28,932 bases of DNA from a virus. Below, piece after piece: positions 2,789 through 23,394 of this stretch (within the stretch, counting starts at the first letter, position 1; the number at the start of each line of letters is the position of its first letter). The DNA is taken from positions 1 to 28,932 of IMG/VR virus record IMGVR_UViG_3300031963_000701; one strand, written 5' to 3'. Both the position numbers and the translations under genes were made by a program. The notes beneath the pieces are model-generated. The model saw only the letters and a program-made list of their open reading frames with translations, did not search any database and was not told where the DNA came from.

Positions 2789-4414
2789 TTAGATAGTATT
2801 CAATCCTTCGATTACCACCTTACCGTAGAATTCTGGTCTTACGATTTTCTTAGCGTAACGAGTCATAACACCACGTCTAGGAGTGAAGTTAATTGGGTCG
2901 TACACTAATGGAGTCATAATAAGAGGTACATAAGGAGCGTAAACAGCACCTGTCTCAAAGAAGTTGCTTCCTTTGAAACCAAGAAGGATAACATTCTCAG
3001 TCATATATGGGTTTTTGTAAACATCATATCTGTTAGAGATAGAACCTACTTGAGATACACCAGCTGCGAACTGAAGAGCGTCTTTTGCAGGATTAGATGC
3101 AAAACCGTTCATAGATTCGAGAATTGTACATACATTAGGAGAAGCAACAATGAAGTTTGCACCACCTCTCATAGTTAATTGATGTATTCTGTTAGATACT
3201 TTTTGAAGTTTGATACCAAGTGTTTGGAACCAAGTAGATTTATTATATGCACCAGCTGCTACTGCGGTTGAATCAACAGTAAATCCAGCGCCAGGCGTAT
3301 AATCATATCCAACTCTAGCTGACCAATAATCAGTAGTCAAAGCGTTAGCTTGTAACATTTCAAGGATTTCCAAATCAATTTCAAGAGAAATGTATTCAGA
3401 AAGCATTTGAGTTAATTCAGCTTCTGCGTCGATTGAGTGGTAAGCGTTCAAGTCTTGCGCAAGTTCAGGAGTCCAAATTGCTTTCAACTTACGAGTCTTA
3501 GCAACGATTGGTTCTGATTTAAGTTCAAGCTCAATTTCAGGAATACCAATATCCGCAGGATTTCCTCTATCTTCAAAATCACCACGATTTTCAGCGGTAG
3601 GTTGTGAATTGTAGAACACAGATACAGGTAGTGAACCGGTAGCAGTTACGCCAGTAGCGATAAATACTGCATTAGCACCAACTACTGCACTATATTGAGG
3701 ATGGTAAGTAACACCAGATCCAGATATACCCCAAGATCTTACTGCGCTGTAATCAGGATTTGTCAAACCACTAAGAGCTACACTTACTTTTCTAGCAGTA
3801 CCGGCTGCAATAGATGCGGAAAGTACAGAGTTAGTCAAATCGTAGTTAATATCTGCGATAGATGCCGTTGCTAAGTTACCTGTAAGCCCGGTTGCAGATT
3901 GATCATTGATTGTATATCCGAAACGACCAGCTCCATAAAGACCACCAGTAGTATCTTGAGTTGAACCAAGTTTTTGAGTTTGGCCTGCGCCAACTGCTAA
4001 ACTATCTAAACCAAAAGGTCCACCTGCACCATAAAGAGAAGAACCACTTTCAGGTCTATTCACAGAAGTTGCAGTAGAATATTTGAAGTCCATATAGAAG
4101 ATAAGACCAGAAGGTAAGTTCATCGGCTGTACAGAAACGAACTCTTTTGCAGCGATGCTACCGAAGATACGTCTTACAAGCGGAAGAGCTACACCAGCCC
4201 ATTCTTCAGAACCTGCTGAAGTACCTGTTCTAGTAGCTTCATCAAGTAATTGTTTTGCTTGGTTTTCAAGCATTACAGCCATACCGTGCTTAGCTGTTTC
4301 AGAACCTGCTCCTTCAAGTAGGCCTGTTTTTTCCCATTTGGATTTCAAACCACGGGTCTGCTCAAGCATTAAGCTTTGAGGGTTTGCTCCAGTCATTAAT
4401 TTTTTTAAGTCCAT
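2789..4414 (-). CDS. 23: Major capsid protein, T4 gp23 family
   Basis: A 541-aa protein that builds the icosahedral head shell. Hallmarks are the block at about residues 78-104 (LVRRIFGSIAAKEFVSVQPM, then LPSGLIFYMDFKY), the segment TRKLKAIWTPELAQDLNAYH followed by DAEAELTQMLSEYISLEID, the strand ANFIVASPNVCTILE, and a C-terminal RRGVMTRYAKKIVRPEF. All are typical of T4-like gp23. An N-terminal helix (1-60) precedes the first conserved block and should be removed by the prohead protease; LLE34-G35 fits the T4 LxE|G cleavage rule. The leader is A-rich (AAAACAAAACAAA before ATG) with no Shine-Dalgarno sequence, as in Bacteroidota. It follows the scaffold gene at 26 nt, and a terminator follows it. 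Confidence 0.95.
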   Translation of the reverse strand: MDLKKLMTGANPQSLMLEQTRGLKSKWEKTGLLEGAGSETAKHGMAVMLENQAKQLLDEATRTGTSAGSEEWAGVALPLVRRIFGSIAAKEFVSVQPMNLPSGLIFYMDFKYSTATSVNRPESGSSLYGAGGPFGLDSLAVGAGQTQKLGSTQDTTGGLYGAGRFGYTINDQSATGLTGNLATASIADINYDLTNSVLSASIAAGTARKVSVALSGLTNPDYSAVRSWGISGSGVTYHPQYSAVVGANAVFIATGVTATGSLPVSVFYNSQPTAENRGDFEDRGNPADIGIPEIELELKSEPIVAKTRKLKAIWTPELAQDLNAYHSIDAEAELTQMLSEYISLEIDLEILEMLQANALTTDYWSARVGYDYTPGAGFTVDSTAVAAGAYNKSTWFQTLGIKLQKVSNRIHQLTMRGGANFIVASPNVCTILESMNGFASNPAKDALQFAAGVSQVGSISNRYDVYKNPYMTENVILLGFKGSNFFETGAVYAPYVPLIMTPLVYDPINFTPRRGVMTRYAKKIVRPEFYGKVVIEGLNTI

Positions 4415-4440: not shown

Positions 4441-5673
4441 TTATTTGATAATACCTGCTAATTTTTTGAATCTATCAGCGAAGTTTGTGTTTTCTGCAAT
4501 TACTTGCTTTTGTGCAGCTGCTGTAGGTTTTGTAGATTTTACAACCTTGCTAGCGAAACCTTCGGTGATTGATTTTTTAGCGGTTTTGTTAGGAGTTACT
4601 TGCTTTAAGTTTTCTGCTAATGTAGAATACACAAGCTTAACTTCTCTAACTGTTTTTGTTCTGTCCAAAGTTTCAATTATCTTAACTTTTTGTTCGTTAG
4701 TCATATTGTGTGCTCTGAACAATTTGTTTGCGAATAACAATTTAGCGTTAAGAAGATTTACTTCGTTAATCGTTGATTGAAGAGATTTGATTGTTTTGTA
4801 AGCTTCATTTAAGTCTTTTTTCAAACTTTCAGCTTCAAGTCCACCATCTTCTTTGTTAGGAGTAGCGGGATCTTCATCTTTCATATCAGCTTCCATTTCA
4901 CGAAGAATTTCCTCCAAGTCGATAACCTCATCGGTTTCTTCTTTTTCCTCTTCGGTTGTCATAACAACTTTAGGGTCTTCGGATTTGTCAGTACCGGCTT
5001 CGGCGCCATCGGAATAAGATTCTGCAGCCATTTCATCTTCAGCAGGAGCTTCTTCATCTCCTAATTGAGCTTCAAGCTCTCTAATGATTGCTTCCAAATC
5101 CATGTCATCTTCCTCAGTGTCCTCTTCTTCGTCGCCTGTGATTGCGTAATCTTCGCCATCACCAGCCAATTCATCATCGGCTTCACCATACATACCATCT
5201 TCGATTTCGTCGTCATCGTCTTCAACAGGAGCCTCTTCAGCGCCCATTTCACCTTCGAGTTCTGCTAAGCGAGCACGAAGTTCAGCGATTTCTTGATCTT
5301 TTTCATCTCCAGCTTCCATTTCTTCTTCTTCGTTAATGTCTTTTGTTTTTGTGTAGTCACTAACTGCGGTTGCGGAATTAGCAGATGATTTTTTGATACC
5401 GATTGAAAGGTCTGTATCAGCATCCAATTTTGGTTGTTTTCCGGGAGTTTTACCCATTACATCGGAACTACCAATCCCTGATGTACTTAATTCTTCTTCC
5501 ACTGGTGTTTGCTCTTCTCCTTCTTCAGCTTCTTGTCTCATTTTTTGAGAAAGAATAGCTTGTAGTCTTGGAGTAAATGCCTCTTCCAATGCAAGTTTTG
5601 CGTTTGCTAAAGCGGTTTCTTTAACGGCTTTGGCATCAGCGATTGCTTCTTTCAAAAGTTTTGAATTTGCCAT
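4441..5673 (-). CDS. 22: Prohead core scaffolding protein, gp22-like
   Basis: A 410-aa, very acidic, mostly helical protein. The N-terminal helix (1-55) is followed by a disordered segment, then three amphipathic helices of similar sequence (ELRARLAELEGEMG, DLEAIIRELEAQLG, DLEEILREMEADMK) separated by Asp/Glu-rich linkers. The C-terminal part (about 285-345), with TINEVNLLNAKLLFANKLF and TVREVKLVYSTLAENL, is the conserved block of gp22-type scaffolds in marine T4-like phages. The last residues, FADRFKKLAGIIK, resemble a capsid-binding end. gp22 templates the shell and is then degraded by gp21; several internal LxE sites fit this. It lies directly upstream of gene 23, as in T4. Confidence 0.88.
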   Translation of the reverse strand: MANSKLLKEAIADAKAVKETALANAKLALEEAFTPRLQAILSQKMRQEAEEGEEQTPVEEELSTSGIGSSDVMGKTPGKQPKLDADTDLSIGIKKSSANSATAVSDYTKTKDINEEEEMEAGDEKDQEIAELRARLAELEGEMGAEEAPVEDDDDEIEDGMYGEADDELAGDGEDYAITGDEEEDTEEDDMDLEAIIRELEAQLGDEEAPAEDEMAAESYSDGAEAGTDKSEDPKVVMTTEEEKEETDEVIDLEEILREMEADMKDEDPATPNKEDGGLEAESLKKDLNEAYKTIKSLQSTINEVNLLNAKLLFANKLFRAHNMTNEQKVKIIETLDRTKTVREVKLVYSTLAENLKQVTPNKTAKKSITEGFASKVVKSTKPTAAAQKQVIAENTNFADRFKKLAGIIK

Positions 5674-5793
5674 TTGTTTTTAATTAAAATTGTTCGTGAA
5701 GTTATTAGTGTAGGAACTCCAATAGGATTATGTTGATTGTTCGGTCACCACTTATAGAGAAGGGTATTCATTAACCAACTATAAAAATAATAA

Positions 5794-5811
5794 ATCCTAT
5801 ATGAATAGGAT
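5794..5811 (-). terminator. AT-rich hairpin in the bS21-gp22 gap (possible weak terminator or attenuator)
   Basis: A perfect 7-bp stem ATCCTAT / ATAGGAT with a 4-nt loop lies in the 171-bp gap 5674-5844, the longest gap within the head operon. Read on the minus strand it is followed by T-rich sequence (TTTATTATTTTTATAG). The stem is AT-rich, so termination would be weak. It could also be an mRNA processing or stabilising element ahead of the heavily expressed scaffold and capsid genes. The rest of the gap shows no other structure I can name; a separate promoter for genes 22-23 would be expected here but I see no convincing box. Confidence 0.4.
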
Positions 5812-5844
5812 ATTTAGAAATAAATATATAATTTTTTTAGAAAA

Positions 5845-6033
5845 CTAAATAAATTTATTATTTATTTTATTTTTTCTTTTAGCTTCTTCCGAAACTAATC
5901 GTTTTTGTACTGAGGGCTTTACATAAGTCTGCCTTCCTCTCAACTCTTCTATCTGTTTTACGTTTTGTACTTTCTTTTTATACGATTTCAAAGCACCCTC
6001 TATGTTGCCGTTCTTAATTTCTATAATCAGCAT
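5845..6033 (-). CDS. rpsU: Ribosomal protein bS21, phage-encoded
   Basis: A 62-aa basic protein with the bS21 plan: a first strand (MLIIEIKNGNIEGALK), the helix YKKKVQNVKQIEELRGRQ, then the family signature Y-x-KPS-x-x-x-R (YVKPSVQKR), and a lysine-rich tail. It is most like Bacteroidota bS21. In the 30S subunit bS21 sits by the 3' end of 16S rRNA, where it contacts the anti-Shine-Dalgarno region. Phage copies of bS21 are known from metagenomes and are thought to exchange into host ribosomes. The start is 3 nt after the ferritin stop, and it precedes the scaffold gene, so it is expressed with the capsid genes. The tail is slightly shorter than in cellular copies (64-71 aa). Confidence 0.92.
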   Translation of the reverse strand: MLIIEIKNGNIEGALKSYKKKVQNVKQIEELRGRQTYVKPSVQKRLVSEEAKRKNKINNKFI

Positions 6034-6036
6034 AGT

Positions 6037-6570
6037 TTATACTTTGAAATAGATTTCTTCGTAGTGTAATATATCTAATAGATTTGTTGGGTCAATTATT
6101 TGTGCAGCGTTTAATAGGTCAGAGTATTCTGCTACCGATTTGGTTTGTCCCTGTCTTAATTCTTGTAGAAAATCAAATGTTGCCAAATCATGCTGGAATA
6201 TTTTTTGAGAAGTTTCGTTGTATTTTTCAAATAGTCCAAACTCTAATGCATAGGCTTTGTTTACAATATCAATAAGTCCAGCGAATTGAATGTTTAGCTT
6301 TACTGCTGGCATTGTTGGAGTTATGTTCCAATCTACCATATAGTTTTGTAGTAATTCGGCGTGTGTTAATTCATTTACTGCTTCTTGTGCAAAAAATGCA
6401 GCTGCGTTATTATACCCAACACCTTTACAAAAGTTACTTGCGTTTCTGTAAAAAAAGTGTGCGGTATATTCATCGTGTAACCTTTCGTTTAACAATGCTA
6501 CAGTAGCACTGCCTAATATCTTAGGATTTATTGCTTTTGCCATTGTTAATGCTTTAATGTTCGTTGCCAT
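6037..6570 (-). CDS. Ferritin-like protein (non-haem, FtnA type)
   Basis: A 177-aa four-helix protein that aligns by eye with bacterial ferritin FtnA. Ferroxidase residues appear in order: E34 in helix A (LHDEYTAHFF), E67xxH70 in helix B (FAQEAVNELTH), E110 in helix C (AYALEFGLFEKYNE) and Q136 in helix D (TFDFLQELRQGQ). FtnA has E17, E50/H53, E94 and Q127 at matching spots, and the FtnA stretch PTFNFLQ corresponds to ATFDFLQ here. Length equals that of normal ferritins (about 165-180 aa). Ferritins oxidise Fe(II) and store iron in a 24-mer shell. It lies in the head operon, 3 nt before bS21 and 7 nt after a small unknown gene. Whether it is packaged, forms part of the virion or acts in the infected cell cannot be told from sequence. 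Confidence 0.85.
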   Translation of the reverse strand: MATNIKALTMAKAINPKILGSATVALLNERLHDEYTAHFFYRNASNFCKGVGYNNAAAFFAQEAVNELTHAELLQNYMVDWNITPTMPAVKLNIQFAGLIDIVNKAYALEFGLFEKYNETSQKIFQHDLATFDFLQELRQGQTKSVAEYSDLLNAAQIIDPTNLLDILHYEEIYFKV

Positions 6571-6577
6571 AACTTAT

Positions 6578-6997
6578 TTATTTTTTATTTTTTAATCCTA
6601 ATCTTTCAAACATTTCCTGTTCGGTAATTTCTGCTATTTCAAAATATCTACCGAGAACATGCCCCATATCTTCGTAAAGGGCTTCTAATCTTTGTTCTTG
6701 TGCATATGCTAAACCGGCCTCTTTATCAAACTTCTCTTGTAATTTCTTTAACTCACCCATATTGCGTTTAACAGTAACTCTATCAAACCAATCACCGGCT
6801 TCACGTAAAGTATATTCTTGTGCGGCATCTGCTATTGCTCCAAGCGTTTCTGAAATCTTACGAATATCAGATTTTCTATTCATTTGCTCTCTGTGTTGTC
6901 CGTAAGTAGAAATGATTTCCAAAAAATGCTTTTTAATTTCAGTTGGCATTTTTTGAAATTCCTCACTCTCTTTTAATATATCTTTTAACTTTATCAT
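6578..6997 (-). CDS. Head-operon protein of unknown function, 139 aa
   Basis: A helical, charged 139-aa protein with no signal peptide or membrane segment. It starts MIKLKDILKESEEF, an opening seen in several small proteins of T4-like head operons. Helices run through STYGQHREQMNRKSD, ETLGAIADAAQEYTL and GELKKLQEKFDKEAG. I do not recognise a family. Its place between gp21 and the ferritin, 4 nt downstream of the 169-aa gene, suggests a prohead core component like T4 gp67 or gp68, but this is inference from position only. Confidence 0.75.
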   Translation of the reverse strand: MIKLKDILKESEEFQKMPTEIKKHFLEIISTYGQHREQMNRKSDIRKISETLGAIADAAQEYTLREAGDWFDRVTVKRNMGELKKLQEKFDKEAGLAYAQEQRLEALYEDMGHVLGRYFEIAEITEQEMFERLGLKNKK

Positions 6998-7001
6998 TTT
7001 A

Positions 7002-7511
7002 TTAAAATTCGGTATTATTTAATTTACTAATCATAGAGTTAATATCTTTACCCATTTTGAATGCCAAATCATATCCTTTACTACGCATTATATCTTTTCT
7101 ATCCATCTTATCATTCATCTCTCCTCTAATATCATCTAAACATTTATAAGCCAATTTAAGTTGCTCAATCGCATCATCAAGTTTACTATCTATGTTTAAC
7201 TTTTTATCACCAATAGCCTCACCCATCCAATCGTGGTCAGCGTTTCCAGTCTTTTTTCTGGTAACAACATCGTACTTTTTAAGTTTCTGAACGGTTTGTG
7301 TTAATTGACTTGGTGTTATACCCAATGAATCAATTACTCTTGCTATTACTGCCTGCTCTCTTTTCTTTGTAAGATTGTAAGATTTTATCGTACTAATAAG
7401 TCTTTCTAAAAATTTTTCAACTCTGGCTGGCAATGCAACTTCCATATCTTCTAGGGCTTCATTTACCTTCTTTTTATTTCCGTTTGGTATTAAGTTTATA
7501 AGTTTTGCCAT
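7002..7511 (-). CDS. Head-operon protein of unknown function, 169 aa
   Basis: A 169-aa protein rich in Lys and helix. The middle (about 40-90) resembles a small helix-turn-helix-like bundle (KREQAVIARVIDSLGITPSQ, then LTQTVQKLKKYDVVTRKK), and the C-terminal third is a helical hairpin (DAIEQLKLAYKCLDDIRGEM). I do not recognise a family. The HTH-like appearance is weak and could equally be an ordinary helical core protein of the prohead. It directly follows gp21 (7 nt gap) in the head operon. Confidence 0.72.
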   Translation of the reverse strand: MAKLINLIPNGNKKKVNEALEDMEVALPARVEKFLERLISTIKSYNLTKKREQAVIARVIDSLGITPSQLTQTVQKLKKYDVVTRKKTGNADHDWMGEAIGDKKLNIDSKLDDAIEQLKLAYKCLDDIRGEMNDKMDRKDIMRSKGYDLAFKMGKDINSMISKLNNTEF

Positions 7512-7518
7512 TTTATAT

Positions 7519-8109
7519 TTAGTTTAATTCGATTAGTATTTCTCTCATAAGGTCTTGTGCTTTACACCATTTTCCACATTCTTCTGCGATTTGCTGCCAC
7601 TGTTTTGATTCATTTATTGGTGCCATAAATGCTCCATGCGTCGATGGGTTAGAAACAAAGTCCCAAGCAATAAGGTCAAAATCTTCCTGAACTATTACAG
7701 TCCCATCCGACATTTCTTTTACTGAACCTACGCCTCTACTGCTTATTCCAAGTCTTATATTATTTTTAAGTAATTCCCTTAATATATTTCCAGATGGAGT
7801 TGAAAGTATTTCTACTTTACCCATAACATCATCACCTTCCCACCAAATATCAACTATATTATGTGATACATTTTTAAGATTAACAACAGGGGAGTCAGGA
7901 TGGTCTAATTCACCCAAAGCCCTTCTTTCTCTAATTAGTTGTTCGTACTTCATACATTCTCTTTTGAGAACATCTTTTGGATAACGTCTTTTATTTTGAT
8001 TAGGAGCACCGCTTCTTTGTAGGATTCCCTGAACTATAAGAGTCCCATTAGACTCTTCTTTAATTTTAGCCTCAAATAAATGTGTTTCTATAAGTAATGC
8101 TTTATTCAT
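7519..8109 (-). CDS. 21: Prohead maturation protease, T4 gp21 / peptidase S80 family
   Basis: A 196-aa serine protease that cleaves scaffold and capsid N-termini during head maturation. Residues 66-71 GELDHP carry the likely catalytic His70, and GISSRG (121-126) carries the nucleophile serine (S123 or S124). The block DFDLIAWDFVSNPST (143-157) is typical of gp21-type enzymes, which share the herpesvirus assemblin fold. The N-terminal strand with NQNKRRYPKDVL also fits the family. The start overlaps the stop of the upstream frame by one base (ATG/TAA arrangement). In T4, gene 20 (portal) lies shortly upstream; here it is absent from the window. Confidence 0.9.
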   Translation of the reverse strand: MNKALLIETHLFEAKIKEESNGTLIVQGILQRSGAPNQNKRRYPKDVLKRECMKYEQLIRERRALGELDHPDSPVVNLKNVSHNIVDIWWEGDDVMGKVEILSTPSGNILRELLKNNIRLGISSRGVGSVKEMSDGTVIVQEDFDLIAWDFVSNPSTHGAFMAPINESKQWQQIAEECGKWCKAQDLMREILIELN

Positions 8110-11742: not shown

Positions 11743-13182
11743 CTATTGTTTTATTATTTTGAATGATTTAATTCCATCTACATTTACTACATAAACGCCT
11801 GGCGGATATTTACTCAAATCTATTTTATTAACCGAGTGTAAACCGTTTATTGTTTTATATAATACTCCAGTTATAGTGAAAATTCTAACCTCTCTAAAAT
11901 TATTACGATTTGGTAAATTAAGAAAATAAATACCCGTATTCATATCACCATATATAGTGATAAGATTTATTTGTTCTCGTATGTTAGTTATCCATTCTGT
12001 CGGTTGAAAATCAAGAGGTGTCTGACCGTCAAAAACACCGGTTATATTGTAGCTCCCTAACATTCCGTAATTATAGATGTTAGGGTTCTCTGTGTTACTT
12101 ACCACCAAATAATATATGCCAGGGTTTAGGATAGTGTCTATTAGTGCGTCTACTTTTGTAAGAGAGTTATATTCTCTGATGAGCACATCATTACGATACA
12201 GTTGTAATTTAAGGTCTATGTTAGCACCCTGGTTAGGTGTGTTATCTTTAGGTTCAAAAGCATCAAAAAAGATTTTTGGGCCTGGACTATAAGGTTTTGC
12301 ATCCGCTCTAAATTGCCCAGTTTTTGTATAATCAAATCGGTAATAGTCCACATCATTAGTCGTATTGATTATTCCGTTTATTGCATAATTTTGGTCTAAC
12401 ATTAACCTTGATGTTGAGCGATCATTACCAACATCATCAGTTCTGTATTTTACAAAGTTTGCGGTGCTCGCTATTATTGCTAAATCATCTTGAAAACGTG
12501 TGCAAGAAGTAGTTCTATCATTATGCCAAAGACTTAAATTTCTAAAATATGAAACACCCATGATAGGTGACCAACTTGTTTCACTTCTTGGCGTACCTCT
12601 TCCAGCATGATATTCTGTAACAAAAGCACAGCTATCTGTATCTACATTTCTATATTGTGATTGATGAAAAAGACCTAATGTGTGTCCTACCTCATGCGTA
12701 ACTGCTTCAGCAACATCTTTGTCATCACCTTTAAGCAGACTTGAAAAAACAAAACAGGGTATTGTGCCATAACCTAAACCGCCCCACCTCCAAGATTCAA
12801 GATAAGCTACTCCCCCCGCGTTGCCGTACCATTGCCAAGATTGCGTAATTATGACCCTCGTTCTTCTTGTTATCGGGGTTGCTAAAAATACTGCGGAGTC
12901 AGTCGTTACATTGATTGTGAATGGGCGAAAGTCTTCAGCGACAAGATTAAATACTCTTGTCATTTGTGCAGTAGTCATGCTTGTGTCAGGCCCACAAACG
13001 AAAGGTTGATTATTTGTAAAAGCTGTCCAGTATGGATCTGTAACCGTTTGACCGTCAAAATCGAGTAAGATGGTTGCTGTGTTAGGAGCAATGTAACTAT
13101 TTAAGCCGTATGGTATCTGCGCCCTTATTCCTAAAAGAAAACATAAAAGCATTATTAGTAAAAGTAGTAGTTTTCTTTTCAT
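11743..13182 (-). CDS. Secreted metzincin metalloprotease with T9SS C-terminal sorting domain
   Basis: A 479-aa protein. Residues 1-21 are a signal peptide (basic start, LLLLLIMLLCFLLG, cleavage after IRA or at AQ). The catalytic domain (about 35-245) has the full zinc motif H163-E164-x-x-H167-x-x-G170-x-x-H173 and a Met-turn at M208 (SPIMG). Cysteines 64, 143, 186 and 227 may form disulphides. Residues about 255-385 look like a PPC beta-sandwich (DVDYYRFDY, then NPGIYYLVVS). The last 75 residues have the T9SS type A tail, with FTITGVLYKT, KYPPGVYVVNVDG and final KSFKIIKQ. T9SS exists only in Bacteroidota, so a phage copy should be exported by the host machine to the surface or medium. It is paralogous to the protease at 13631-14605. 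Confidence 0.92.
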   Translation of the reverse strand: MKRKLLLLLIMLLCFLLGIRAQIPYGLNSYIAPNTATILLDFDGQTVTDPYWTAFTNNQPFVCGPDTSMTTAQMTRVFNLVAEDFRPFTINVTTDSAVFLATPITRRTRVIITQSWQWYGNAGGVAYLESWRWGGLGYGTIPCFVFSSLLKGDDKDVAEAVTHEVGHTLGLFHQSQYRNVDTDSCAFVTEYHAGRGTPRSETSWSPIMGVSYFRNLSLWHNDRTTSCTRFQDDLAIIASTANFVKYRTDDVGNDRSTSRLMLDQNYAINGIINTTNDVDYYRFDYTKTGQFRADAKPYSPGPKIFFDAFEPKDNTPNQGANIDLKLQLYRNDVLIREYNSLTKVDALIDTILNPGIYYLVVSNTENPNIYNYGMLGSYNITGVFDGQTPLDFQPTEWITNIREQINLITIYGDMNTGIYFLNLPNRNNFREVRIFTITGVLYKTINGLHSVNKIDLSKYPPGVYVVNVDGIKSFKIIKQ

Positions 13183-13630: not shown

Positions 13631-14605
13631 TTAATATCCTACTAATTGGCGTATTACTAAGCTATCATTCTGAATGTTTGTACAACTAAAAGAAGTGGTC
13701 CCAATCCACCAATAACCTATTCTTGCATATGAATTACCCATGATAGGCGCTCTTGATGTTGATCCTGTGCCGAAACCAGAATTGTATTCAGTTAAAAATA
13801 CACAAGCATCATTGTAAGATGATTGATGATAAAGGCCTAATGTATGTCCTACTTCGTGTGAACTGGCTTCGAATATATTTTTCTGTTTATATCCAAGTGC
13901 TTTACTAAAAACAAAACATGGCACATCTAATCCCCATTTGATAGATTCCAAATAAGCAACACCTCCTGCACAAGCAGTCGGTCCACAATAAAACTCAAAG
14001 TTTTCAGTTATTATCACTCGCTGTCTTCTTACAAGAGAAGCTGCATTGTAAACACTTGAATCTGTTGTTACTGCTATTGATGCAAATTGACTAAAATCTT
14101 TTCTGACAGAATCTACGATGTTATTGATTTCAACCGTACTAAGGCCTGAAGGAGTTGCGTAAAAGGGCAACCCTCCGTTTTGAGAAGTCCAATACTGACT
14201 TGTAACATATTGGCCATCAAAATCTAAAAATATAACCCAATTCCCAAATGCTGGAGGTGGAGGAAAAGGCGTAGCGTCACATGCATCACCTATTCCATCT
14301 TTATCACTATCTAATTGATCTGGATTAAAAGTTACCGAGCAATTATCTTGTGAATCAATTATTCCGTCTTTATCAGTGTCTCTTGTTTTTCCGCCACTTC
14401 GCCTAAGAGCAACTTGTTGATCTTTAGGCGACATCCTGGCAACGGCATTAAATTGGGTTATTCCAAAATCACAAGTTTCAGGAGACTTTTTCTTAAAGGA
14501 AATTTGTTTGGTTTCTTCTTTTGTTGGTTCTGTTTGTTTTTTACAGAAGGGTAATAATAAAATTACCACAGTTGCCCATAGTAAAGTTTTTGTTGTTTTA
14601 TTCAT
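13631..14605 (-). CDS. Lipoprotein metzincin metalloprotease with thrombospondin type 3 repeats
   Basis: I start it at the ATG at 14605 (MNKTTKTLLWATVVILLLPFC), 324 aa, because this gives an N-terminal export signal; upstream TTG/ATG codons at 14644/14638 would bury it and overlap the DUF1353 gene. Cys21 after LLLPF is a plausible Bacteroidota lipobox, though not perfect. Residues 77-110 hold two thrombospondin type 3 calcium repeats (DTDKDGIIDSQDNC and DSDKDGIGDACD). The protease domain (about 122-324) has H250-E251-x-x-H254-x-x-G257-x-x-H260 and a Met-turn at M289 (APIMG). It matches the second protease through most of the domain (LDFDGQ, RRxRVIIT, GGVAYLES, PCFVFS). It lacks PPC and T9SS parts. 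Probably anchored at the outer membrane of the infected cell. Confidence 0.9.
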   Translation of the reverse strand: MNKTTKTLLWATVVILLLPFCKKQTEPTKEETKQISFKKKSPETCDFGITQFNAVARMSPKDQQVALRRSGGKTRDTDKDGIIDSQDNCSVTFNPDQLDSDKDGIGDACDATPFPPPPAFGNWVIFLDFDGQYVTSQYWTSQNGGLPFYATPSGLSTVEINNIVDSVRKDFSQFASIAVTTDSSVYNAASLVRRQRVIITENFEFYCGPTACAGGVAYLESIKWGLDVPCFVFSKALGYKQKNIFEASSHEVGHTLGLYHQSSYNDACVFLTEYNSGFGTGSTSRAPIMGNSYARIGYWWIGTTSFSCTNIQNDSLVIRQLVGY

Positions 14606-14616
14606 AATATATGGTT

Positions 14617-15036
14617 TTACACAATTTTGTGCCACCATAACCAACCTAAGATTCTAACAAAAAAGTATCTTAGTTTATTATCGAATTTATTGTCATTAAC
14701 GATATTTGCCCAAAAAAGCATTTCATCATCAACTTGCTTTCTTGTCATTGAATGGTCTCTAATGACATAAAGTCTATCATGAACTAAATATGCGAATAAC
14801 CCATCATTAAAGGGTCTAACGATTGACCATAACCATTTAGGTACTGTAGACATATCATATGTAAAACCTTTCGGAATGTTTATGATTTTTCCGCTACTTA
14901 AAATAATGGTTAATGGTTTCTCTATTCTCCAGTATTTAGAGCTCTTGTCTGAATAAATATAAGATTGTACGATTAAATCATCGGTAAGTAGTTGCTCTAC
15001 TATATTATCCTTAGTTATATAGCCTGCCTTTGCCAT
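14617..15036 (-). CDS. DUF1353-type phage protein
   Basis: A 139-aa protein with the family pattern PKGFTYDMSTVPKWLW (about residues 57-72), then FAYLVHDRLYV, then RKQVDDEMLFWANI. The conserved D, S, T, P and HD residues suggest a small metal-binding or enzymatic fold, but no reaction is established for DUF1353. The C-terminus is hydrophobic (FFVRILGWLWWHKIV) and could touch the membrane. The start overlaps the end of the 148-aa gene by 26 nt. DUF1353 proteins are often found near lysis or tail genes, consistent with this position. Confidence 0.82.
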   Translation of the reverse strand: MAKAGYITKDNIVEQLLTDDLIVQSYIYSDKSSKYWRIEKPLTIILSSGKIINIPKGFTYDMSTVPKWLWSIVRPFNDGLFAYLVHDRLYVIRDHSMTRKQVDDEMLFWANIVNDNKFDNKLRYFFVRILGWLWWHKIV

Positions 15037-15475: not shown

Positions 15476-16609
15476 TTATTTTTTATAGTTAAGCATATTT
15501 GTATAAACCTCATAATATCTATCTGCTATAATATCCCAATTATATTGTTTACAAGTATCATAACCGTTTTCTTTTAATTGAAATTTCTGATTATTTGTAA
15601 GTTGTGTAAATTCATAAATTCCATTAGTAATCTCTTGCGGTGTAGAACCACAATATAAACTATTTGAATCGGTTAAGAAATCCGATAACCCATCTACTCT
15701 AGATGATAGTAGTATCGTCTTTGATGCCAACGCTTCTAAAGCAACAATACCAAATGGCTCGTGCTTACTTGGCATTATCACAGCATCGGCTGAGTGTATT
15801 ATATCAATTTTATTTTGGTTGTATACAGGTCCGTAATAATGTATTCCAGATTTATTTTGTAAAGCTTTTTCTAGTGCATTTATCGCTTCCACATCTCCTC
15901 CATTATAAGATCCTACAAAAATTAAATCAACGTCAACTGGTAATTCGGAATCCAATAATTCTACTATTGATTTCATAATGGCAAATCTACCAATATAAAT
16001 AATTTTATATTTTCTATTTCCAGGTAATTTAATTTTATTTTGTTGTTTCCAATTATTCAAATCAATACCATTTGGAATAATATCAGTCTTATCTATAAAT
16101 TGTGGAAAATACTTTGCATACCCATTAGATACATTTATGATTTTATCTGCATTTTGTAACCCAAACCACTCCATCTCAACGTGTGCTTTATGTAACCACA
16201 TACCATCTATTGTATTAAAATCGGCGCACATTTTAATACCAACATTAGCCATGGCATTTGCGGATAAATTCATTGAAACCAATAGGGGAACATTATGATA
16301 CTTTGCCAAATACACTCCCGCAAAATATGTAGACCAATCGTAAGAATGAACAAAATCTGGTTTTGGAAATTTAAGTGCTTCTGCTAAATATACAGTATGC
16401 CCTAATAAAGTATTTATTGAACCATGTTGTATTTGTGGAATTGGATGCGATACTCCAATATAATTTTTATCTTTGATTGTAGTATCTGGATAGCCGACTA
16501 TATTAAATTCAACTCTATCCTTCAATCTTTCATAAATGTTTTTGAATTGTACACCAAGTCCACCTGTCGGTTTAGATATACTATCAGGAAATATACATAA
16601 CACTTTCAT
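15476..16609 (-). CDS. GT-B glycosyltransferase, GT4-like
   Basis: A 377-aa retaining-type glycosyltransferase. The N-terminal half opens MKVLCIFPDSISKPTGGLG, with the Gly-Gly of the acceptor loop at 16-17. The C-terminal half has IIPNGIDLNNW (177-187), YIGRFAIMKS (205-214) and the E284-x7-E292 donor-binding motif in EPFGIVALEALA. Both Rossmann halves are complete, so it should be active with a nucleotide-sugar. The sugar and acceptor cannot be read from sequence. Likely targets are the Ser/Thr-rich fibres encoded just upstream, or host surface glycans to block re-infection. A TAnnTTTG box lies 34-41 nt upstream. Confidence 0.88.
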   Translation of the reverse strand: MKVLCIFPDSISKPTGGLGVQFKNIYERLKDRVEFNIVGYPDTTIKDKNYIGVSHPIPQIQHGSINTLLGHTVYLAEALKFPKPDFVHSYDWSTYFAGVYLAKYHNVPLLVSMNLSANAMANVGIKMCADFNTIDGMWLHKAHVEMEWFGLQNADKIINVSNGYAKYFPQFIDKTDIIPNGIDLNNWKQQNKIKLPGNRKYKIIYIGRFAIMKSIVELLDSELPVDVDLIFVGSYNGGDVEAINALEKALQNKSGIHYYGPVYNQNKIDIIHSADAVIMPSKHEPFGIVALEALASKTILLSSRVDGLSDFLTDSNSLYCGSTPQEITNGIYEFTQLTNNQKFQLKENGYDTCKQYNWDIIADRYYEVYTNMLNYKK

Positions 16610-17076: not shown

Positions 17077-20000
17077 TTAAATTATTACATATAAAGTATT
17101 ACTATCAGGTGTTATACCACTATATTCTGCCGATGATAAAGATACTATTTTCAATATAGGTGAAGTTCCAGTAAAAGTATCTCCCAGGTTTGTTATGAAA
17201 GAACCCGATTGTGAGCCGGATCTAATAAGTGCAGATCCTGACACCGTCAATGAACTCGAAACCGTCAATGAACCCGAAACCTCTACTCTAGATCCAGATG
17301 CGTATACTAAATTAGACCGGTTTGAATTACTTGTACCATTACCAATGATAAATGCATAATTTGCTGAGCTTGTTATATTATATGCACCCTGTACATGTTG
17401 GTAGCTACCCGCTGCTATTGTAAAAAATCCTTCAGCATGGGATGCCTCTGCGGATGCGGTTGTTGTATGTCCTTCGGCGTGCGCCCATCTTGCAGATGCC
17501 AAAGTTCTATATCCTTCGCTATGAGATCCTGTATTAGAGCTAAATGTTTCTTGTCCTTCGGAGTGGGAAAACTCACCATTTGCTGTAGTAGAAGATCCTT
17601 CGGCGTGTGAACCTTGTCCAAAAGCAATTGTACTACCACCTTCGGCGTGTGAGTATATTCCTCTTGCTATAGAAAAAATGCCCTCTGCATGCGAATAAGA
17701 ACCGGTTGTCTGTGTTTGAAAACCTTCGGCGTGTGAATAAGATCCTGATGCCCATGTTTCTTGACCTTCAGCGTGTGAGTAGCCTCCTATTGCTTGAGTG
17801 TTAAACCCTTCTGTGTGTGAAGCTACTCCTATTGCTTGTGTAATCCAACCTTCTGTGTGTGAATATGCTCCTATTGCTATTGTTGAAATTCCTTCTGCAT
17901 GCGAGCCTTCTCCTATTGCTTGTGTTGTTCGTCCTTCTGCGTGTGAGTCACTTCCCATCGCTTTTGTTCGGTCTCCTTCTGCGTGTGAATATGAACCCGA
18001 TGCTAATGTTTGGTCTCCTTCTGCATGTGAAAAATTGCCTGCAGCCCAAGTGAGATTACCTTCCGAATGCTGACCGGCATTTCTAAATGAGTTTGCGCTA
18101 AATAGAGAATATATAAAACCATACCCACTTAGGCCGGGTGCACCAATAGTTGTAGTAGATCCATTGGTTGTTACACTGGTTACAACCCCACGTTGCCAAT
18201 TAGTAGTTGGACCACGATCTGATCCGGCGGTATAAATAAATCCAGAGCCAACAGGAAAAATACCTACGAAATTGCCAGTTATTGTTACCGAATTTGATGT
18301 ATATCCCGATATAGCGTAAGATTCTGGATTAGCTGCCCACGTTCCAAATCCTTCAGCGTGAGCATAACCAATACTAGCTACTAAGTTGTAATAACCTTCG
18401 GCGTGCGAATATCCATTTTCACTGCCAGAGCTATATATTATGTTTTGCCTACCTTCTGCATGCGAATATGCAGCAATTACTTCATTATTCCAGCCTTCCG
18501 CATGAGAAAAACTGCCAGATGCTATTGAACCACTACCTTCGGTGTGTGAAGCAAGTCCTATTGCAACGGTATACACTCCCTCAGCGTGCGAATATGAACC
18601 CGTTGTTCTTGTACCAGCACCCTCTGCGTGTGAACCTTCTCCTGATGCTTCTGTGAAGCCACCTTCTGAATGCGACCAGTCTCCTGCTGCTAGCGTATCT
18701 ACACCTTCGGAATGAGCTGCTCTTCCAACAGCATTCCATAACGGACCAGCTGCTTCGGTTTGTTCACCTTCGGCATGTGAATACGCACCCGATGCTCTTA
18801 CACCTAAACCTTCACTATGTGAAAAGCCACCCGATGCCCATGTTTCTCTACCTTCAGCGTGCGAACCTTCTCCGGATGCAAGTGTTATTCCACCCTCTGC
18901 ATGCGACCCAAGTCCACTCGCGACAACATAGGCTGATTCAATCCCTACACCCTCTGCATGTGCGTAGTGTCCGCTTGCTAATGTATAAACTCCTTCAGCG
19001 TGTGAATAGTTTCCTGATGCGTTTGTGGATGCACCCTGTGCATGTGAGTACAATCCATTGGCACCTACATCTAGTCCTTGCTGAAAACTCTGACTAGTAT
19101 GTATAAATCTAAATGAACCAGTTCCAGCAAATGTACTATTCCTATTGAATTGTATTTGAGTATCTGAACCACCAACTGTACTTCCACCGCCTCCGGCCGA
19201 TGATGTATAACTTACTAACCCCGTAGTTGTATTATAAGTTAATACGAAACCGGTATTGTTTACAGCTACGCCACTTACAAACAATGAACCGGAAACAGTA
19301 GTAGATCCAGTTACTATTAATGATCCTGTAATTTGTGTATTACTATTTATAGATACGATTGTACCCGTATCACTTATACTCGAACTTGTAATATGTTCGT
19401 TGCCTGTTCCTTTTAATAATCTATTTTGAGGAATATATATTTCACTACCAAGATTACCATATGTTTCGGGCCCCATAAGCAAAACAGATGAAGTTACAGT
19501 AACACCATCCCCTCTATGAACAAATAGCCATTCATCTTGCACAGAATCATATAACAATGATCCAGAACCCGGAGATGAACCTGAATCTATAACTGCCAAT
19601 CCGCCATATCTAATTGTTGGTGAAGATACATTTGTCGTAATCAGATTTGTTCCTATGTTTAATACCGATGAACTTATATATTGTATTGAAGAACTACCTA
19701 ACACTGTAAGATTACCACTTATAATCAATGAACCACTTATTGATTGATTTGCCGTAAATATATTACTTCCGGTTGTAGCAAAAGATGCGGTTTGATTATT
19801 TCTAACAAATGAGCTAGTCTGTGAATTTATTACAAAACTACTTGTCTGCGAATTAGTTACGAAAGAGCTAGTCTGCGAATTTAATACATAAGGCGAAAGC
19901 ATTGAAGCCGTTTGTGCATTAGCTACAAAGCTTGAAGTTTGTGAATTAGTTACGAAAGAGCTTGTTTGTGTATTTCTAACAAAGCTTGAAGTTTGAGAAT

Positions 20001-23000
20001 TGGTTACAAATTGAGTCGTATCTACTGAACCAGCTCCAACAGCAGATGATGCTGTATAAGTTATTCTGCCAGTAGTTGTATCATATGTTAATACATGCCC
20101 CGATCCGGCCGATAATGCTGCTCCACTTACAAACACCGTTCCGCTTATATTTAAGGCGCCATTTATTGTATGAGAATCAGTTGTTGTATTTCCTATTGTT
20201 ACGGCGTTTTGATTAACAATAAATTCTCCACCAAAAACGGAAAGTGATGATGTTATCGTTACAGATCCTGATACTATCATAGATCCGCTTCTTATTGTCA
20301 ATCCATTCTCATCAAATCTTGCTCTTTCAATTCCCTTAAAATAAAATCTTGTTGCAAAATTATTAGCTCCACCTAAATCAGATCTTGGTTGTATAATCAG
20401 ATCACCAGCTAAGGTTGCGGGATTACCATTTGTTCCGGTATTACTTCCAGCTACTACTATTAGAGATTGTGTAAATGATGAAGATATATTAGTATTGGAT
20501 GCTAAAACATCTCCTATTCTTAAACCAAGACCATCGGTACTACCTCCAAAATGTGCACCACCTGCTACCCATAATTTACTATTTTGTATAGAACCTACAG
20601 TACCTGCCCCAATACCAATACCTGATTGCGTTTGGTATAGAATACTTGAACCTAATGTAGTTGTTGTATTCCATATTGGTATAAAGTTTGTAGTTCCTAC
20701 TAATTGCGAATTTGTAGTAAAGCTTGAAGTTTGTGAGTTTAATACAAATGAGCTCGTTTGAGTATTAGTTACGAAACTACTAGTCTGTGAGCTTATTACA
20801 AATGATGAAGTCTGTGTATTTGTTACAAAGCTTGAAGTTTGAGTATTTCTTACAAAACTACTAGTCTGCGAATTAGTTACAAACTGTGTAGTATCTACTG
20901 AACCAGCTCCAACAGCGGATGATGCTGTATAAGTTATCTGACCCGTTGTAGTATTGTAAGTTAATACATGGCCTGTTCCTGATGAAAGCGCTGCTCCGCT
21001 AACAAAAACAGTTCCACTAACAAATTGGTCGCCACGGAAAGTATTAGAACCAGTCGTAGCAAATGATGCAGTTTGAGTACTTCTAACAAAACTACTTGTC
21101 TGTGAATTAAGTACGAATGAGCTGGTTTGTGAATTTGTCACAAAACTGCTAGTCTGCGAATTTAATACAAAACTACTTGTCTGCGAATTAGTTACGAATG
21201 AGCTAGTTTGTGAGTTTGTTACAAATTGAGTCGTATCTACTGAACCCGCTCCAACAGCAGATGATGCTGTATAAGTTATCTGACCTGTCGTTGTATTATA
21301 TGTAAGAACGTGGCCGGTTCCAGATGAAAGCGCTGCTCCACTAACAAATACAGTTCCACTAATAAATTGACTTCCTCTAAAAGTATTAGAACCGGTCGTT
21401 GCAAATGATCCTGTTTCAGAATCCAATACATATGGAGAAAGCATTGAAGCGGTTTGTGCATTTAGCACAAAACTACTTGTTTGTGAGTTTACTACGAAAG
21501 AGCTAGTCTGTGAGTTTGTTACAAAGCTTGAAGTTTGTGTATTTCTTACAAAGCTACTTGTCTGATTATTCAGTACATATGGAGAAAGCATTGAACTTGT
21601 CTGTGAGTTCAATACAAATTGAGTCGTATCTACAGATCCAGCTCCGACAGCTGCTGAAGCTGTATAAGTTATTTGTCCTGTTGTAGTATTGTAAGTTAAT
21701 ACATGTCCCGATCCGGCCGATAATGCTGCCCCACTTACAAAGATTGTACCGCTAATAAACTGGTCACCACGAAATGTATTGGAGCCTGTAGTAGCAAATG
21801 AGCCAGTTTGAGTACTTCTAACAAAGCTACTCGTCTGTGAATTGGTTACAAATGAGCTAGTCTGCGAATTAGTTACAAATGAGCTTGTTTGTGAGTTTAG
21901 TACATACGGAGATAGCATTGAAGCAGTTTGTGCGTTTAGTACAAAGCTACTAGTCTGCGAATTGGTTACAAATTGTGAAACATCCACACTACCAGCTCCA
22001 ACGGCCGAGGATGCGGTATAAGTTATCTGACCTGTTGTTGTGTTATAAGTTAATACATTACCGTTGCCCGAAGATGCTGCTGCTCCACTAATAAATACCG
22101 TACCGCTAATAAACTGGTCACCACGAAATGTATTGGAGCCTGTCGTAGCAAATGAACCGGTTTGTGTACTCCTAATAAAACTGCTAGTCTGTGAATTAGT
22201 TACGAAAGAGCTAGTCTGCGAATTTACTACAAAGCTTGAAGTTTGTGAATTAGTTACGAAAGAGCTAGTCTGCGAATTTCTTACAAAACTACTTGTCTGT
22301 GAGTTTGTTACAAATTGTGAAACATCTACAGATCCAGCTCCGACAGCTGATGAAGCTGTGTATGTGATTTGACCTGTAGATGTATTATACGTCAATACAT
22401 GGCCAGTTCCAGATGATAATGCTGCTCCACTTACAAAGACCGTTCCACTTATATTTAGTGCCCCATTTATTGTATGTATATCGGTTAATGTGTTTCCTAT
22501 TGTTACGGCGTTTTGATTAACAATAAATTCTCCACCAAAAACTGATAGGGAAGAAGTTATATTAACCGTTCCGCTTATTATTTGATTACCTCTAAAAGTA
22601 TTAGAGCCAGTTGTAGCGAATGATGCTGTTTGTGAGTTTAATGTGAAGCTACTAGTCTGACTATTAGTTACAAAGCTTGAAGTTTGTGCATTTACTACAA
22701 ATGAGCTAGTCTGCGTATTAGTTACGAAAGAACTTGTTTGTGAGTTTAATACAAACGAGCTAGTCTGCGTATTAGTTACGAAAGAGCTCGTTTGAGTGTT
22801 TCTAACAAAGCTACTTGTCTGTGAGTTAGTTACGAATTGACTGGTATCAACAGATCCTCCGCCTATAGCAGAAGACGCTGTATATGTTATTTGTCCTGTT
22901 GTACTGTTGTAAGTCAATACATTACCGTTGCCCGATGATAGTGCTGCTCCACTAATAAACACCGTTCCACTAATAAACTGGTCACCACGGAAAGTATTAC

Positions 23001-23394
23001 TACCAGTTGTGGAAAAAGATGAAGTTTGGGTATTTCTAACAAAACTACTTGTTTGTGAGTTTACAACAAAAGAGCTAGTCTGTGAGTTTGTTACAAAGCT
23101 TGAAGTTTGCGAATTAGTTACAAAACTACTAGTCTGATTATTTAATATAAATGACCCTGTCTGCGTATTAGTTACGAAAGAGCTTGTTTGTGTATTTCTA
23201 ACAAAACTACTTGTCTGCGAATTGGTTACAAATTGAGAAACATCTACACTGCCAGCTCCTACTGCCGCAGACGATGTATAACCCACCTTTCCACTAACGG
23301 AATCATATGTAAGTACATTTCCATCGCCAGCTGATTGCTGTGCTCCTATTCTTAAGTCTGCGATACTACCTGAGTCTGTGTAAAATATTGGCAT
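17077..23394 (-). CDS. Giant repetitive tail fibre / adhesin, 2105 aa
   Basis: Order: a short N-terminal domain (1-50, FYTDSGSIADLRIGAQQS); then about residues 50-1208 of blocks built from the 9-residue repeat SQTSSFVTN, each block ending ATTGSNTFRGDQFISG and followed by a beta segment (GHVLTYNTTTGQITYTAS) and GAGSVDTTQF. A spacer at about 895-1045 has FIPIWNTTTTLGSS and ARFDENGLTIR. About 1445-2005 is a beta-roll of some 33 SHAEG-type 14-residue repeats, broken at about 1687-1772 by an inserted domain. A C-terminal part ends SNTLYVII. The protein is almost free of Lys and Cys and rich in Ser, Thr, Asn and Gln. It likely trimerises and binds the host surface. Confidence 0.9.
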   Translation of the reverse strand: MPIFYTDSGSIADLRIGAQQSAGDGNVLTYDSVSGKVGYTSSAAVGAGSVDVSQFVTNSQTSSFVRNTQTSSFVTNTQTGSFILNNQTSSFVTNSQTSSFVTNSQTSSFVVNSQTSSFVRNTQTSSFSTTGSNTFRGDQFISGTVFISGAALSSGNGNVLTYNSTTGQITYTASSAIGGGSVDTSQFVTNSQTSSFVRNTQTSSFVTNTQTSSFVLNSQTSSFVTNTQTSSFVVNAQTSSFVTNSQTSSFTLNSQTASFATTGSNTFRGNQIISGTVNITSSLSVFGGEFIVNQNAVTIGNTLTDIHTINGALNISGTVFVSGAALSSGTGHVLTYNTSTGQITYTASSAVGAGSVDVSQFVTNSQTSSFVRNSQTSSFVTNSQTSSFVVNSQTSSFVTNSQTSSFIRSTQTGSFATTGSNTFRGDQFISGTVFISGAAASSGNGNVLTYNTTTGQITYTASSAVGAGSVDVSQFVTNSQTSSFVLNAQTASMLSPYVLNSQTSSFVTNSQTSSFVTNSQTSSFVRSTQTGSFATTGSNTFRGDQFISGTIFVSGAALSAGSGHVLTYNTTTGQITYTASAAVGAGSVDTTQFVLNSQTSSMLSPYVLNNQTSSFVRNTQTSSFVTNSQTSSFVVNSQTSSFVLNAQTASMLSPYVLDSETGSFATTGSNTFRGSQFISGTVFVSGAALSSGTGHVLTYNTTTGQITYTASSAVGAGSVDTTQFVTNSQTSSFVTNSQTSSFVLNSQTSSFVTNSQTSSFVLNSQTSSFVRSTQTASFATTGSNTFRGDQFVSGTVFVSGAALSSGTGHVLTYNTTTGQITYTASSAVGAGSVDTTQFVTNSQTSSFVRNTQTSSFVTNTQTSSFVISSQTSSFVTNTQTSSFVLNSQTSSFTTNSQLVGTTNFIPIWNTTTTLGSSILYQTQSGIGIGAGTVGSIQNSKLWVAGGAHFGGSTDGLGLRIGDVLASNTNISSSFTQSLIVVAGSNTGTNGNPATLAGDLIIQPRSDLGGANNFATRFYFKGIERARFDENGLTIRSGSMIVSGSVTITSSLSVFGGEFIVNQNAVTIGNTTTDSHTINGALNISGTVFVSGAALSAGSGHVLTYDTTTGRITYTASSAVGAGSVDTTQFVTNSQTSSFVRNTQTSSFVTNSQTSSFVANAQTASMLSPYVLNSQTSSFVTNSQTSSFVINSQTSSFVRNNQTASFATTGSNIFTANQSISGSLIISGNLTVLGSSSIQYISSSVLNIGTNLITTNVSSPTIRYGGLAVIDSGSSPGSGSLLYDSVQDEWLFVHRGDGVTVTSSVLLMGPETYGNLGSEIYIPQNRLLKGTGNEHITSSSISDTGTIVSINSNTQITGSLIVTGSTTVSGSLFVSGVAVNNTGFVLTYNTTTGLVSYTSSAGGGGSTVGGSDTQIQFNRNSTFAGTGSFRFIHTSQSFQQGLDVGANGLYSHAQGASTNASGNYSHAEGVYTLASGHYAHAEGVGIESAYVVASGLGSHAEGGITLASGEGSHAEGRETWASGGFSHSEGLGVRASGAYSHAEGEQTEAAGPLWNAVGRAAHSEGVDTLAAGDWSHSEGGFTEASGEGSHAEGAGTRTTGSYSHAEGVYTVAIGLASHTEGSGSIASGSFSHAEGWNNEVIAAYSHAEGRQNIIYSSGSENGYSHAEGYYNLVASIGYAHAEGFGTWAANPESYAISGYTSNSVTITGNFVGIFPVGSGFIYTAGSDRGPTTNWQRGVVTSVTTNGSTTTIGAPGLSGYGFIYSLFSANSFRNAGQHSEGNLTWAAGNFSHAEGDQTLASGSYSHAEGDRTKAMGSDSHAEGRTTQAIGEGSHAEGISTIAIGAYSHTEGWITQAIGVASHTEGFNTQAIGGYSHAEGQETWASGSYSHAEGFQTQTTGSYSHAEGIFSIARGIYSHAEGGSTIAFGQGSHAEGSSTTANGEFSHSEGQETFSSNTGSHSEGYRTLASARWAHAEGHTTTASAEASHAEGFFTIAAGSYQHVQGAYNITSSANYAFIIGNGTSNSNRSNLVYASGSRVEVSGSLTVSSSLTVSGSALIRSGSQSGSFITNLGDTFTGTSPILKIVSLSSAEYSGITPDSNTLYVII
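17380..19060 (-). repeat. SHAEG 14-residue repeat array (YadA-like beta-roll)
   Basis: About 33 copies with consensus SHAEGxxTxASGxY, 42 bp each. Most keep S/A-H-A/S/T-E-G. The 14-residue spacing equals that of the left-handed parallel beta-roll in the head of YadA-type trimeric adhesins. One insert of about 86 residues (18078-18335) splits it into 16 and 17 copies. Confidence 0.85.
19770..23240 (-). repeat. 9-residue SQTSSFVTN repeat blocks in the 2105-aa fibre
   Basis: Tandem 27-bp units coding SQTSSFxxN, grouped in about seven larger modules of some 100-170 residues separated by beta segments. Protein identity is high, but serine codons vary between neighbouring units (TCA-AGC, AGT-AGT, AGC-TCT). 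A 50-bp stretch at 20189-20238 recurs exactly at 22493-22542, a sign of duplication or gene conversion. Confidence 0.88.

Follow-up and report, generated by a model that had tools for sequence, protein, structure and literature searches.

The ribosomal protein bS21 encoded in the 28.9-kb virus record analyzed here (28,932 nucleotides, referred to below as the window) belongs to a phage lineage, nearly all of which carries an arginine in place of Tyr54, the residue that hides the anti-Shine-Dalgarno (anti-SD) sequence in the hosts. In Bacteroidia, bS21, bS18, and bS6 hide the 3' tail of the 16S rRNA, with Tyr54 in a central role, and translation for this reason proceeds without SD pairing. An abundant phage lineage with its own bS21, changed at just this residue, is a natural experiment on the possible remodeling of the anti-SD pocket by phages. 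It also corrects the published generalization that position 54 stays aromatic in the bS21s of phages that infect such hosts, and it narrows the vague idea of a ribosome hijack to one residue and one leader, both testable in Flavobacterium johnsoniae.

What is observed here is the family, the place of the gene, the selection acting on it, Arg54, and the SD-poor leaders. We see an even chance that a working phage bS21, made alongside the head proteins, replaces the host bS21 on the 30S platform and that Arg54 alters the handling of the 16S tail.

The bS21 gene and its surroundings

The bS21 homologue (62 amino acids; MLIIEIKNGNIEGALKSYKKKVQNVKQIEELRGRQTYVKPSVQKRLVSEEAKRKNKINNKFI) is encoded at 5845..6033 on the minus strand and begins with ATG. 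Its identity, proposed without a strand in the first-pass annotation, is borne out by matches above the curated cutoffs to Pfam PF01165 (49.5 bits; cutoff, 27) and NCBIfam TIGR00030 (44.3 bits; cutoff, 28.95), and the PHROG annotation that it matches is “ribosomal protein S21.” The closest solved structure is that of F. johnsoniae bS21 (7JIL chain z; E value, 6e-8). The predicted structure has two helices (pLDDT, 82.5; pTM, 0.39), and its matches in the PDB are weak and are to S21 chains only (best E value, 0.98).

The gene is located within the head gene cluster, as had been noted before, and is codirectional with it. The order on the minus strand is the prohead core protease gp21 (7519..8109; Peptidase_S77, 110 bits), two conserved head-region genes of unknown function (7002..7511 and 6578..6997), a ferritin-like gene (6037..6570; PF00210, 67 bits) that lies 3 nt upstream of bS21, bS21 itself, a gp22-type scaffold gene (4441..5673), and the major capsid protein gene gp23 (2789..4414; PF07068, 250 bits). 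Thus, bS21 lies near the protease and capsid genes in the window, and terminase and portal lie outside it. An identical bS21 is found on a 72.9-kb IMG/VR contig (L002/G001).

Most relatives have bS21 at the same place, which is therefore not a matter of chance; in the sample picked by the gp22 leader, 55 of the 66 loci with sufficient upstream sequence carry it. The median dN/dS of 0.16 across 1,194 pairs indicates strong purifying selection, which suggests that the phage gene is functional, and residues K17, Y19, K20, K40, S42, and R46 are invariant among Arg54 phage bS21s and common to those of hosts. Both the selection and the frequency with which the gene is kept argue against its being cargo with no role at this site, carried in a slot, bounded by the protease operon and the gp22 leader, that takes small genes such as those for ferritin and bS21. 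Such a slot would fit the absence of bS21 from 12 capsid-picked relatives, the many changes that the bS21 label requires on both the capsid tree and the gp22 tree, and the independent variation of the ferritin-like gene, which a minority of relatives carry whether bS21 is present or absent. We nevertheless consider a role as cargo improbable.

The position among head genes is also compatible with packaging of bS21 in the virion and action at the onset of infection, a possibility raised by Chen et al. in 2022 (PMC9723584). However, a packaging signal was sought in the sequences of the Arg54 phage bS21s and none was found. The N terminus has no conserved resemblance to a protease site, since residue 5 varies among S, N, D, and E, and the Glu expected of a T4-like I/L-x-E cleavage site occurs there in just 6 of 64 Arg54 phage bS21s. 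Nothing else in the sequence points to packaging, which is very unlikely.

A host in the Bacteroidota is likely, in agreement with the first-pass annotation, on four grounds: the closest bacterial bS21s are Tyr or His types of Flavobacteriales, Saprospirales, and Chitinophagales; the leaders are SD-poor; the protein encoded at 11743-13182 has a type 9 secretion system (T9SS) sorting domain (TIGR04183, 25.6 bits; cutoff, 23); and the capsid protein is related to that of Flavobacterium phage immuto (51% identity). The protein with the sorting domain (minus strand) is metallopeptidase-like; the domain, of T9SS type A, is at its end and apparently addresses it to the host secretion system. A second metzincin-like protein (13631-14644) has weak matches only. 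Three long fiber-like open reading frames (17077-23394, 23815-26760, and 26837-28927, minus strand) contain many TNSQTSSFV repeats, the first and third of them also contain SHAEG repeats, and the third has a weak YadA-head match that is below the cutoff. A glycosyltransferase family 4/1 gene (15476-16609, minus strand) lies between the fiber genes and the peptidases.

Arginine at residue 54

In F. johnsoniae, Tyr54 of bS21 stacks on A1534 of the 16S rRNA and hides the anti-SD, as reported by McNutt et al. in 2023 (PMC9976891). In the window, it is Arg53 that aligns with this residue; residues 50 to 55 of 7JIL read QKAAYI and the corresponding stretch of the phage protein reads EEAKRK, which puts Arg at the Tyr54 position. 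The equivalent of Glu10 is also missing, from the window protein and from each of the 64 distinct Arg54 phage bS21s. The hiding of the anti-SD via bS21 that was invoked in the first-pass annotation therefore lacks its central residue here, and the same is true of the relatives, 56 of 57 of which have Arg at position 54 in a sample that was picked by the gp22 leader and carries no bS21 selection bias. The capsid-picked IMG/VR loci have 39 Arg, 4 His, 1 Tyr, and 1 Gln. By comparison, phages of the type described by Chen et al., which were recognized by a bS21 gene facing the head genes, have Tyr or His at this position in 21 of 21 distinct sequences. The same annotation had pointed to loss of key rRNA-contact residues as evidence against its proposal; the loss of Tyr54 comes close to this, but the rRNA-binding core is kept.

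Among the bS21s sampled from the class Bacteroidia, 64 of 70 (91%) have an aromatic residue at position 54, 4 have Arg, and 2 have Leu, and close Bacteroidota homologues from GTDB are aromatic in 38 of 38 cases. In a wider sample of the phylum, Arg is found in 38 of 55 loci, so that Arg at position 54 is, in the sequences sampled, the ordinary state of Bacteroidota outside the class Bacteroidia. A statement that Arg54 is absent from all hosts held in a pattern-picked sample and was overturned by the phylum-wide one; only the Bacteroidia are strongly aromatic. Unless the phage infects one of the rare lineages with Arg54, its protein thus resembles those of Bacteroidia but has, at the key contact, a residue otherwise foreign to them. 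If the host does lie in an Arg54 lineage, of the kind common in the phylum outside the class and rare within it, Arg54 would simply match the host.

The main rival to altered handling of the tail is that Arg is functionally equivalent, with its guanidinium holding A1534, the anti-SD staying hidden, and the phage protein doing no more than topping up or copying the host bS21, by which SD-less translation would continue. Natural Arg54 bS21s occur within the class, and the two such genomes that were examined are SD-poor; therefore, Arg54 alone need not change initiation or imply SD use. The fixation of a single residue rather than many also points to a constrained contact, and the SD-poor leaders of the phages (see below) are as expected if the anti-SD stays hidden. 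On the other side, the retention of an aromatic residue in 91% of the sampled Bacteroidia and in all Chen-type phages indicates that aromaticity matters there, and an SD before gp22 tracks Arg54. We regard equivalence as possible, at somewhat less than one chance in three.

Two further observations concern bS21 genes in bacterial assemblies. Flavilitoribacter nigricans (G014) has three bS21 matches above the family cutoff (L348, L351, and L352). Near-identical bS21s with a GNIE deletion and Arg54 in common are found in metagenome-assembled genomes of two phyla (L237 and L240, on GTDB contigs labeled Clostridiales and Tenericutes) and are perhaps phage borne or misbinned.

Shine-Dalgarno sequences and the leader of gp22

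Leaders were scanned for 4-mers matching the Bacteroidota 16S tail, and the results were compared with those for a control interval. The lack of SDs in the leaders that had been remarked on earlier was confirmed, with an SD 4-mer in 1 of 23 window genes (4%), equal to background, compared with 57% versus 2% background in the T4 control. The corresponding values for a Flavobacterium phage are 2% versus 19% in the control interval. The gp23 capsid leaders have no SD in any of 25 distinct Arg54 sequences, and no genome-wide excess was found in the long Arg54 genomes G002 and G003. Compared with bS21-less relatives, the raw count of SD 4-mers is higher, partly owing to gp22 and to a small number of gene families with SDs in every group. 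General use of SDs by Arg54 phages is rejected on the evidence of the window, the gp23 leaders, and the long genomes.

These results bear upon the idea that phage bS21 frees the anti-SD and that the resulting ribosomes favor SD-bearing phage mRNAs in general. Y54A ribosomes are better at translating strong-SD messages (PMC9976891), and most Arg54 phages have an SD before gp22, as would be expected of such release. However, because the phage leaders are SD-poor, including that of the window gp22, general release of the anti-SD for phage mRNAs is unsupported, and we judge it unlikely.

Between bS21 and gp22 lie roughly 190 nt that contain an AT-rich stretch, a hairpin, and a 97-nt three-helix RNA, all read from the minus strand. 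The conserved AT-rich stretch (TTTAGTTTTCTAAAAA..TTATATATTTATT; 5819..5848) overlaps the stop codon of bS21 and is a candidate promoter for gp22; in several bS21-less relatives it is kept directly after a terminator-like hairpin. The window hairpin (ATCCTAT-TCAT-ATAGGAT; 5794..5811) has compensatory changes in its stem, which reads ATCCCAT/ATGGGAT or ATCTCAT/ATGAGAT in relatives. The first-pass annotation had bS21 expressed just before gp22 and gp23, and the gene does precede gp22, but the hairpin, the promoter-like stretch, and the structured leader intervene; therefore, bS21 may be part of the upstream transcript.

The structured RNA leader of gp22 (5691..5787) has three helices with compensatory changes. 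In their alignment, 99% of the pair cells are standard and 9 of 20 pairs have double changes, and none of 500 shuffles was as good; RNAalifold found nearly identical helices unaided. Of the 80 loci obtained with a pattern scan, 74 have a gp22-like start downstream and four end at a contig edge; the remaining two are L511 and L523, the latter with an additional in-frame ATG at its start. A covariance model places the leader once per long relative contig searched, before gp22 only and whether or not bS21 is present; it also finds the leader in Microcystis phage Mel-JY01 (39 bits; E value, 8e-4) but not in immuto, T4, or Chen-type phages. It has no match in Rfam and is apparently undescribed, possibly a new phage RNA element. 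Judged by this distribution, the leader belongs to gp22-gp23 and not to bS21, and a requirement of the leader for bS21 is ruled out by the bS21-less relatives that retain it.

Among loci carrying the leader, an SD before gp22 (scored as AAGGA or AGGAG) is present in 67 of 70 with the EE type of Arg54 bS21, which is the commonest Arg54 type, and in 5 of 14 with the KA type, compared with 4 of 23 loci without bS21 and none of 7 with a Tyr, His, or Gln bS21. It is missing from the window phage. A Pagel-type test favors dependence (likelihood ratio, 16.7; P = 0.002), with the SD gained in the Arg54 state only; the independent pairs (two to three agree and none disagree) are too few for significance. 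Linked transfer can also explain the association, given the distance of about 190 bp between the two loci. Within its own genome, the gp22 SD ranks 6 of 178 and 8 of 79 in strength and is not the strongest. The SD precedes the scaffold gene in L508, L096, L134, L558, and others, in which the other genes are SD-poor. A deep side branch of gp22 relatives (L520, L523, L556, and L558) has its own form of SD (such as AAAAGGAAGG) along with a KA-type Arg54 bS21, and the bS21-less sisters of that branch (L494, L499, L512, L518, and L519) have no SD.

A more specialized scheme, to which we give only a small chance, is that Arg54 bS21 makes a ribosome with a freed anti-SD and that the SD in the gp22 leader lets phage-modified ribosomes, and not those of the host, start scaffold synthesis. 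The window phage, with Arg54 and the leader but no SD, would then be an ancestral or reduced form. The gp22 leader would in that case be the phage counterpart of the bS21-sensing rpsU leader of the host.

Proposed mechanism and known systems

In the account that we favor, phage bS21 would be made alongside the head proteins, with late timing suggested by the position of the gene and by transcripts of other clades. bS21 is loosely bound to the ribosome. The phage protein would displace the host bS21 on the 30S platform, as its family and precedent suggest; it keeps the rRNA-binding core and would present Arg where the Tyr, His, or Phe of the host stacks on A1534. Given the role of Tyr54, phage-modified ribosomes probably hold the 3' tail of the 16S rRNA differently and would still initiate on SD-less phage mRNAs, presumably to the benefit of the phage. 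Of the initial description, then, bS21, the likely Bacteroidota host, and the head cluster stand, but the residue that hides the anti-SD is missing.

Its main idea, late retuning of ribosomes with possible virion packaging, is already published in the form of hypotheses. Chen et al. (PMC9723584) found bS21 in the terminase-portal-protease-capsid region of Bacteroidetes phages, where, in other clades, it is highly transcribed late together with structural genes, and they proposed late replacement of the host bS21. Those phages resemble the present ones in having a Bacteroidetes-type bS21 in the head region, SD-less hosts, and a proposed late hijack of the ribosome. However, their bS21 and head genes are on opposite strands (as is also the case in L017 and L039), whereas here bS21 is codirectional and directly before gp22-gp23, and they have an aromatic residue at position 54 (61 of 61 phage bS21s in that study), whereas here there is Arg54 and residue 10 is missing.

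F. johnsoniae bS21 (7JIL) shares the family and the rRNA-binding core and is the closest solved structure, but its Tyr54 stacks on A1534 (PMC9976891) where the phage has Arg. Many Flavobacteriales rpsU genes have an autoregulatory extended SD, which the phage bS21 gene lacks. Pelagibacter phage HTVC008M likewise encodes a bS21 that was probably acquired from the group of its host, and this protein enters Escherichia coli ribosomes (Mizuno et al., 2019; PMC6375957). In that case, host and bS21 are alphaproteobacterial, with no involvement of an anti-SD-hiding pocket. The arrangement in Mel-JY01 (PP395634) is similar to that of the window in that bS21 follows the protease by two genes and precedes gp22-gp23, the RNA leader is the same, and position 54 is not aromatic. 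The genes of Mel-JY01 do use SDs (36% versus 6% background), which fits a host that does not belong to the SD-less group.
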